Source of the DNA: Bryobacterales bacterium F-183
GTDB lineage: Bacteria; Acidobacteriota; Terriglobia; Bryobacterales; Bryobacteraceae
Direction: 5' to 3'
Length of the DNA: 64,000 nucleotides
Assembly: GCA_016865505.2 (NCBI GenBank)
Contig: AP025252.1
Location: forward strand, 5,540,137-5,604,136
Below are positions 22,451 to 49,399 of this stretch, one piece after another; position 1 is the stretch's first letter, and every line of letters begins with the position of its first letter. Position numbers and translations under genes: made by a program. The notes beneath the pieces are model-generated. The model saw only the letters and a list, made by a program, of their open reading frames with translations, was not told where the DNA came from and searched no databases.

Positions 22451-23464
22451 TCAAACAATCTGGATCGGCCGCTCACCGCGCGCCAGCACACTACCAATGC
22501 GATAGGCGTCGGGAAACGCCCCAATAAAGGACTCAGCATCGCGTTCCGGCATCGTAATGCACAGCCCGCCCGAGGTCTGCGGGTCATAGAAAATCGCCGG
22601 AGCGTCACCCGCCACGCAACCCGACGCAAACTCACGATTATTGTTCAATCCGCCGGGAATCGCCCCCGCCTCGACATACTCGCTCGCCCCCGGCAGCAGC
22701 CGTACACGATCTCGTTCCACGGCAATGGTCACGCCGCTCCCGCGAGCCAGTTCGCGCACATGCCCCATCAGGCCGAATCCGGTGACGTCGGTACACCCAT
22801 GGACCTCAAACTGCAGCATCGCCTCACAGGCCGCACGATTCAGCTTCAGCATCGACGCCGTCGCCTCCGCCACATGTTCCGCCTTGGCGATCTCCCGCTT
22901 CAGCGCCGTACCAATCACGCCCGTACCAATCCGCTTCGTCAGTAGCACAGCATCGCCCACCTGCGCCCCCGTATTGGCCTTCACGCGATCCGGATGAATC
23001 AGCCCCGTCACCGCATACCCGAACTTGATCTCCGGGTCATTCACGCTATGCCCGCCCACCACCGGACACCCCGCCTCGCGCATCTTCTCCGCCCCGCCCT
23101 TCAGGATCTCAGCCAGAACGTCGAGATCCCCGCCGCCGGGGTAGCACAGCACGGAAAGCGCACTAATCGGACGCCCGCCCATCGCATACACATCGCTCAG
23201 CGCATTCGCCGCTGCGATCGCACCAAAGGTGAACGGATCATCGACAACAGGCGTAAAGAAATCGACGGTTTGCACCAGCGCCAAATCGTCCGAAATGCGG
23301 TACACCGCCGCATCGTCGCTGGTATCGAAGCCCACAATCACATTGGGGTCTTCAAACCGCGGAATTTGCCCCAAAACACGGTCCAAAATGCTCGGACTCA
23401 GCTTCGCGGCGCAGCCGCCCGCCTTCACATGCGCGGTCAGCCGGGTAGTCGGAGCGGTAGCCAT
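22451..23464 (-). CDS. selD: Selenide, water dikinase (selenophosphate synthetase)
   Basis: A 337-residue SelD that makes selenophosphate from selenide and ATP, the selenium donor for selenocysteine tRNA and selenouridine. The catalytic loop is KAGGCAAK, with Cys18 at the position of the essential Cys/Sec and Lys21 conserved. The second cysteine found in E. coli (GCGCK) is alanine here. Further ATP and metal motifs are present: VGFDTSDDAAVY, VQTVDFFTPVVDDP, NALSDVYAMGG and GGHSVNDPEIKFG. C-terminal blocks include HGCTDVTGFGLMGH and DPQTSGGL. It proves the organism uses selenium in some form and supports the selenoprotein proposed at 48546-48893. selA and selB are not in the window. Confidence 0.97.
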   Translation of the reverse strand: MATAPTTRLTAHVKAGGCAAKLSPSILDRVLGQIPRFEDPNVIVGFDTSDDAAVYRISDDLALVQTVDFFTPVVDDPFTFGAIAAANALSDVYAMGGRPISALSVLCYPGGGDLDVLAEILKGGAEKMREAGCPVVGGHSVNDPEIKFGYAVTGLIHPDRVKANTGAQVGDAVLLTKRIGTGVIGTALKREIAKAEHVAEATASMLKLNRAACEAMLQFEVHGCTDVTGFGLMGHVRELARGSGVTIAVERDRVRLLPGASEYVEAGAIPGGLNNNREFASGCVAGDAPAIFYDPQTSGGLCITMPERDAESFIGAFPDAYRIGSVLARGERPIQIV

Positions 23465-48545: not shown

Positions 48546-48893
48546 TCAACCCAAAAACTCCTCGTACATCCTCACCTCAAACCCAACCACCAACTTCCCG
48601 CCGACCCGCAATGCCGGAGCCCGCAAGTTCCCGCTAGGCCCAATCACCAGCGCCGCGATCTCCTCATCCGTAACCTTCGCACCCTTTACGCGCAGCCGCT
48701 TCACTGCCTTACCCTTCGCCGCCACGATCTCATCCGCCTTCCGAGCCAGCGCGATCGCAGCCTCACGCCCGATCACCTGCTTCTTCGCATCCACTCTCTC
48801 CGCAACCGCGACCTCATTTGACGCAAGAAACTCCTGCGTTCGTCCGCAGCTCGTTCAACCCTGCCGGTGGTACTGCCAATCGATTCGCTTCAT
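48546..48893 (-). CDS. Selenoprotein candidate: ArsC/Spx-like thioredoxin-fold protein with UxxC
   Basis: The open frame as normally called begins at GTG 48794 and would lack the front of the thioredoxin fold. Extending it to ATG 48893 crosses a single TGA at 48857-48855 (codon 13). Read as selenocysteine (U), the product is 115 residues: MKRIDWQYHRQG-U-TSCGRTQEFL and onwards. U-T-S-C occupies the place of the redox CxxC of Spx-like proteins (Spx has C-T-S-C). The body keeps the ArsC/Spx layout, with NLRAPALRVGGKLVVGF near the C-terminus. A hairpin suited to be a SECIS follows the TGA, and selD is encoded in this genome. The alternative is a nonsense mutation in a Cys-containing gene. No strong ribosome site precedes the ATG. 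A terminator at 48922-48954 belongs to the gene upstream. Confidence 0.72.
48822..48838 (-). promoter_or_regulatory. SECIS-like hairpin downstream of the in-frame UGA
   Basis: On the minus strand, nucleotides +17 to +33 after the UGA form a 7-bp stem, CGCAGGA with TCTTGCG (one G-U pair), and an apical loop of three bases, GUU. The loop begins 24 nt after the UGA with G then U. The E. coli fdhF SECIS has its SelB-contacting GU at about 20-21 nt, and the known bacterial range is roughly 16-37 nt. The hairpin is inside the coding region, as in all bacterial SECIS elements. Two competing short stems also exist, so the fold needs testing. Confidence 0.6.
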
Positions 48894-48921: not shown

Positions 48922-48954
48922 AAAAACAAAAACGGCTCCCCACTCAGGGGAGCC
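48922..48954 (-). terminator. Intrinsic terminator after the small exported cysteine protein gene
   Basis: A perfect 8-bp stem, GGCTCCCC with GGGGAGCC (48934-48954), with a 5-nt loop, followed on the minus strand by GTTTTTG. It ends 28 nt before the ATG of the selenoprotein candidate, so that gene must have its own promoter overlapping this site or rely on read-through. Confidence 0.9.
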
Positions 48955-48977
48955 GCCTTGTCTGAAACCAGAAAAAC

Positions 48978-49295
48978 TTACGCCTTCGGCATCTTCACCG
49001 ACTTGACCGTGACGACGTCACCCTCAAGCTTGCCGTCGATCTCTACCTTGTGACCCAGGTGGTCCATGACCTTCGCCTTCGAGTCGTCGGAGATCTTGAG
49101 AACCTTACCGTCGACGACGAACACCGGAGCCTGGCCACCCTTCACGCAGCCCTGCACGCACTTCATCGACTTTTCCGATGCATCAGCATGCGCCATGCCG
49201 CACTTCGCGTCAGAGATCGTTCCGCTCCACTTCTCGGCCATCGCGCTCATCGCAAACAGCGAGGCGGTCATTGCAATCATCCCGATTTTCTTCAA
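48978..49295 (-). CDS. Small exported protein with paired cysteines
   Basis: A 105-residue protein that begins with TTG 49295, set by AAGGAG seven bases upstream; an ATG five codons later is possible. The signal peptide (LKKIGMIAMTASLFAMSAMA) is cleaved after AMA. The mature part starts EKWSGTISDAKCG and has a C-x15-C-x3-C pattern (AKCGM, MKCVQGCVKGG), then a small beta-rich domain (VDGKVLKISDDSK, KVEIDGKLEGDVVTVKSV). It resembles periplasmic proteins of unknown function in Acidobacteria, possibly metal-binding. It has its own terminator. Confidence 0.82.
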   Translation of the reverse strand: MKKIGMIAMTASLFAMSAMAEKWSGTISDAKCGMAHADASEKSMKCVQGCVKGGQAPVFVVDGKVLKISDDSKAKVMDHLGHKVEIDGKLEGDVVTVKSVKMPKA

Positions 49296-49399
49296 GTTGT
49301 TACTCCTTCTTGGAACTCGTCCTAAAAACTTGGGCGCCTTCAGGGTACCAAAAAGCATCCTTGGTTATAGAGCCATAACGCGCCCCGAAAGTTACACCA

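Follow-up and report, generated by a model that had tools for sequence, protein, structure and literature searches.

The window analysed here is a stretch of 64,000 nucleotides from the genome of Bryobacterales bacterium F-183 (6.28 Mb, 98.6% complete). The features below are given with their position in the window, their strand and the basis of assignment.

48546..48893, minus strand: selenoprotein gene, 115 aa, ArsC family (seleno)protein NF041106 (NCBIfam NF041106 and Pfam ArsC PF03960)
48855..48857, minus strand: in-frame TGA, read as Sec, residue 13, opening the motif U-T-S-C (TGA in 80/80 named-genome and 37/37 phylum relatives)
48821..48839, minus strand: SECIS hairpin, 8-bp stem, loop GUU (fold and covariation)
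48929..48959, minus strand: terminator-like hairpin of the upstream gene (pattern scan, consensus match only)
22451..23464, minus strand: selD, selenophosphate synthetase, Cys form (TIGR00476, 373.8 bits, cut-off 125)

The selenoprotein gene starts with the ATG at 48893 and ends with its own stop TGA at 48548-48546, resulting in 115 residues given readthrough of the TGA at 48857-48855. This codon is preceded by 12 codons and followed by 102, and the product around Sec reads MKRIDWQYHRQG-U-TSCGRTQEFLASNEV..., with T-S-C after U; the coordinates, the counts and the U-T-S-C motif of the first-pass annotation were reproduced. An in-frame TAG is located six bases ahead of the ATG, and no other start precedes the TGA. 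The earliest alternative start past the TGA is GTG 48794, where standard calling begins, as had been remarked before, and the UxxC motif is lost. The selenoprotein gene seems to be its own unit because the upstream gene (48978-49358) stops ahead of the terminator-like hairpin, the putative terminator being a consensus match only. A sigma-70-like promoter for the selenoprotein gene was not found in the pattern scan, and no Shine-Dalgarno sequence was obvious by eye. Across most relatives, no conserved neighbour gene pointing to a function and no widely shared partner was found; the larger neighbour clusters in relatives, the selenoprotein gene aside, mostly resembled antisense frames.

The product was compared to curated family models. 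NCBIfam NF041106 was matched with 129.4 bits (cut-off 85), residues 4-110 aligning to profile positions 1-107 of 107, and the family position for Sec or Cys in UxxC is occupied by the TGA at codon 13, followed by T-S-C. With Sec read through, Pfam ArsC (PF03960) was matched with 26.6 bits at a gathering cut-off of 24. The curated Spx/MgsR model TIGR01617 gave 31.9 bits versus a cut-off of 75.05, and the protein should therefore not be called Spx; of the earlier description as Spx-like, the ArsC/Spx-type fold was retained. Structure prediction from 36 aligned members yielded a model with a pLDDT of 93.7. The nearest solved structures to the model were ArsC-family and Spx chains (best Z 8-9), the best Foldseek matches were Spx structures, and the sequence-profile match to Spx was 2.8e-07. 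Invariant among the 36 members were C13 (the position of U), C16, G61, R91, A92 and P93, with R91 preceding P93 in the stretch G-x-x-G-x-L-R-A-P.

Two functional alternatives were weighed on this basis. A true ArsC-type arsenate reductase with Sec as nucleophile is unlikely: it is favoured by the Pfam ArsC match, barely above its cut-off, and by the similarity of the model to arsenate reductase structures from Vibrio and Yersinia (Z 7.4), but these chains were outranked, within 1-2 Z units, by Spx-type and other ArsC-like chains, and no ars gene neighbourhood was recognised. Somewhat less probable still is an Spx-like regulator that would bind RNA polymerase and sense oxidation by a U-x-x-C switch. 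Spx itself uses CxxC as its redox switch, and Spx structures were the best sequence and Foldseek matches; against this stand the missed TIGR01617 cut-off and the fact that Sec proteins are mostly enzymes.

Relatives were collected from 60 related genomes, from 396 genomes of the phylum (match threshold 1e-12) and as 80 sequences from named genomes, these sets overlapping in part. The 80 named-genome relatives were fetched by patterns without the Sec codon, so that the fetch was neutral between Sec and Cys, and TGA was found at the Sec codon in every one of them. The phylum search resulted in 38 matches, 37 of which (including the window's own) had one internal TGA; the 38th was a Cys protein (C-S-T-C) of a sister Spx-like family. 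Strong or partial in-family matches occurred in four of the 60 related genomes besides the window's own, each with one TGA. Cys at position 13, for which an alignment had been proposed in the first-pass annotation, was thus found in none of the 80 and 37 in-family relatives, nor were there close strains with a Cys codon and no hairpin, the pattern named there as the mark of a nonsense mutation; TGA and hairpin were kept. The records of the 80 relatives are labelled Acidobacteria, Planctomycetota, Verrucomicrobiales, Rokubacteria, Nitrospinae, Gemmatimonadetes, Zixibacteria and others, the labels of some metagenome bins being plainly unreliable, and the labels outside that phylum show that the family is not specific to Acidobacteria.

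A same-genus genome differed over 42 codons by 10 synonymous versus 4 nonsynonymous base differences, with the TGA unchanged and two amino-acid changes, both conservative (R/K, K/R). The sequence IDWxYHRxG ahead of the TGA is conserved in relatives. One member (L052:1501-1821) reads U-T-S-S, with Ser replacing the resolving Cys, and keeps TGA and hairpin. A divergent NF041106 branch (L069-L077) scored 53-84 bits, below the cut-off, and is characterized by R-[EA]-V and the SECIS stem GCACC/GGTGC. Judging by this branch, the curated 85-bit cut-off of NF041106 is suggested to miss true Sec members.

The SECIS hairpin lies 16-34 nt past the TGA, with the loop G 24 nt after it, and thus shows the arrangement of bacterial selenoproteins, a hairpin just past the UGA with G in the loop. 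The hairpin had initially been described with a 7-bp stem; its GUU loop and the position of the G stand, and the stem is 8 bp in the window gene, with 7 bp conserved across relatives. With the T of TGA as position 1, the conserved stem consists of the seven pairs 20-36 to 26-30. Across 18 distinct close members, 99.2% of cells were paired, and at 4/7 pairs both partners had changed; none of 500 shuffles was as good, and shifted registers paired in 33-69%. Stems at nearly the same place were GCGTCCA/TGGACGC in a second subgroup and GCACC/GGTGC in a third, so that at least three SECIS hairpin types by sequence are present in NF041106.

Folding of the region after the TGA, as had been advised, gave z -4.3 for the 23-nt core of the window gene and unexceptional values (z -0.3 to -1.75) for longer stretches of 46-58 nt. 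In synonymous-codon shuffles, a moderate excess was obtained for Sec forms (mean z -1.24) over Cys-labelled rows (-0.17; one-sided p 0.017), a contrast blurred by the inclusion of L033, really a Sec form, among the latter. The window gene alone gave p about 0.2, which is conservative, the codon pool having been taken from the Sec genes themselves. An Rfam search of the region resulted in no SECIS family match. Since the single-sequence fold was only moderately better than shuffles, the comparative evidence decides on the SECIS.

The genome was searched for the Sec machinery. Genes for selA (455.9 bits over cut-off) and selB (387.1 bits over cut-off) and a tRNA-Sec with TCA anticodon were all found, and the selD already noted in the window was confirmed; the set selA, selB, selC and selD expected of a bacterial selenoprotein is therefore present in the genome, and the lack of selA, selB or tRNA-Sec that would have spoken against the selenoprotein does not occur. 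Across genomes, selA was found in 40/40 tested genomes having the TGA-type gene and was missing from 18/38 other genomes, the comparison set being non-random. A second selenoprotein of this genome is an Fdh-alpha-like gene with in-frame TGA and the canonical L-U-H-G-P (L102:1300-2500; G000:C1:4398322 onward), and the Sec machinery thus has another client.

Taken together, the conserved TGA, the covarying hairpin and the Sec machinery show that the gene codes for a genuine selenoprotein and has not suffered a nonsense mutation. The first-pass reading of a selenoprotein with ArsC/Spx-type fold, UxxC and bacterial SECIS is supported by the machinery, by TGA in 80/80 and 37/37 relatives and by covariation. 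Accounts without Sec have a negligible probability. Taken alone, an in-frame stop near the N-terminus suggests that an ordinary ArsC/Spx-like gene of the Cys type has become a pseudogene, acquired a nonsense mutation or been misread in sequencing, but the TGA is fixed in many independent assemblies and conserved over many genera, by which this explanation was refuted; moreover, the protein is conserved past the TGA, the same-genus differences are mostly synonymous and the hairpin covaries. A start at GTG 48794 with a non-coding upstream part is given by mechanical ORF rules and is just as improbable: the conserved IDWxYHRxG before the TGA lies inside the NF041106 model, conserved residues ahead of the TGA being the observation that refutes such a start, and a protein begun at the GTG would have neither the UxxC centre nor the fold's first strand. 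Reading of the TGA as Trp or by near-cognate readthrough, in favour of which nothing was found in this genome, is opposed with equal force by the UCA tRNA-Sec together with SelA, SelB and SelD, by the alternation of TGA with Cys codons in the sister Spx-like family and by the use of TGA as the gene's own stop.

The protein is thus almost certainly a small oxidoreductase with a single thioredoxin-fold domain that belongs to NF041106 and the ArsC/Spx superfamily, with UGA13 decoded as Sec via the SECIS and with a U-x-x-C redox centre. Sequence comparison supports the Sec position, the SECIS, the machinery and the predicted fold; from fold and motif, a thiol/selenol redox activity is inferred. 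SelB with Sec-tRNA would decode the UGA of codon 13 as Sec at the SECIS hairpin, and helix 1 would begin with the U-x-x-C redox centre made up of Sec13 and Cys16. Most likely, the Sec13 selenolate would attack a substrate that is a disulfide, an oxyanion or derived from a peroxide, and Cys16 would resolve the intermediate via a selenenylsulfide that is then reduced by cellular thiols.

The same genome searches brought in the sister Spx-like family, which has the motif YxKPx[U/C]xxCRKAxxxL and Sec and Cys alternating at the first position of UxxC/CxxC. Its Sec forms are L026, L027, L030, L033-L037 and L040, its Cys forms L025, L028, L029, L031, L032, L038 and L039, and these members are classic Sec/Cys pairs. 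In most Sec forms a hairpin is located around AGGAGUUUCCU, one base earlier than that of NF041106, and its pairs are not kept in the Cys forms. Two genomes with Cys forms (G031, G053) are without selA; other genomes with Cys forms keep it. It is conceivable, if rather doubtful, that the NF041106 subfamily depends strictly on Sec and, unlike the sister family, cannot have it replaced by Cys; if true, this would imply a selenium-requiring reaction or substrate.

The designation as undescribed was withdrawn. In addition to the NF041106 score of 129.4 bits, a 2026 review (PMC13188914) includes NF041106, under the name 'Arsenate reductase-like protein, UxxC', among its 119 families or subfamilies of prokaryotic selenoproteins and refers for it to the 2008 Global Ocean Sampling study (PMC2398784), in which a table row reads 'Arsenate reductase 2, cd03032, UxxC' with 238 Cys homologs. 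ArsC-like selenoproteins were already included in a 2006 survey (PMC1794560). The finding is thus correct but ordinary, and the protein is an ordinary further member of the catalogued selenoprotein family NF041106 and no discovery. The one observation without a counterpart in the literature searched is the lack of any Cys member of the NF041106 subfamily in the genomes checked. What was gained is that a selenoprotein truncated by simple ORF calling was recognised from raw sequence and that one more member was added to a catalogued family. NF041106 is apparently Sec-only in the genomes checked and has several SECIS types, which makes the reason why Sec is kept a reasonable subject of study.

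Compared with known systems, the protein shows no substantial difference from the NF041106 family, having a full-length match (1-107 of 107), the same UxxC and one Sec. 'Arsenate reductase 2' (cd03032) of the Global Ocean Sampling likewise has UxxC with Sec in an ArsC/Spx-like domain; it is from a marine metagenome and has its 238 Cys homologs, whereas the subfamily treated here yielded no Cys form. Spx (TIGR01617, PDB 1z3e, 6ghb) has in common the fold, the position of CxxC and the R-x-P and G-[FY] motifs; it is a known RNA-polymerase regulator with Cys where the NF041106 protein has Sec, and its cut-off is missed by the latter. With ArsC arsenate reductase (PF03960, PDB 3f0i, 1sd8), the fold and the position of the active-site Cys are shared, and the NF041106 protein differs by Sec in its UxxC motif.
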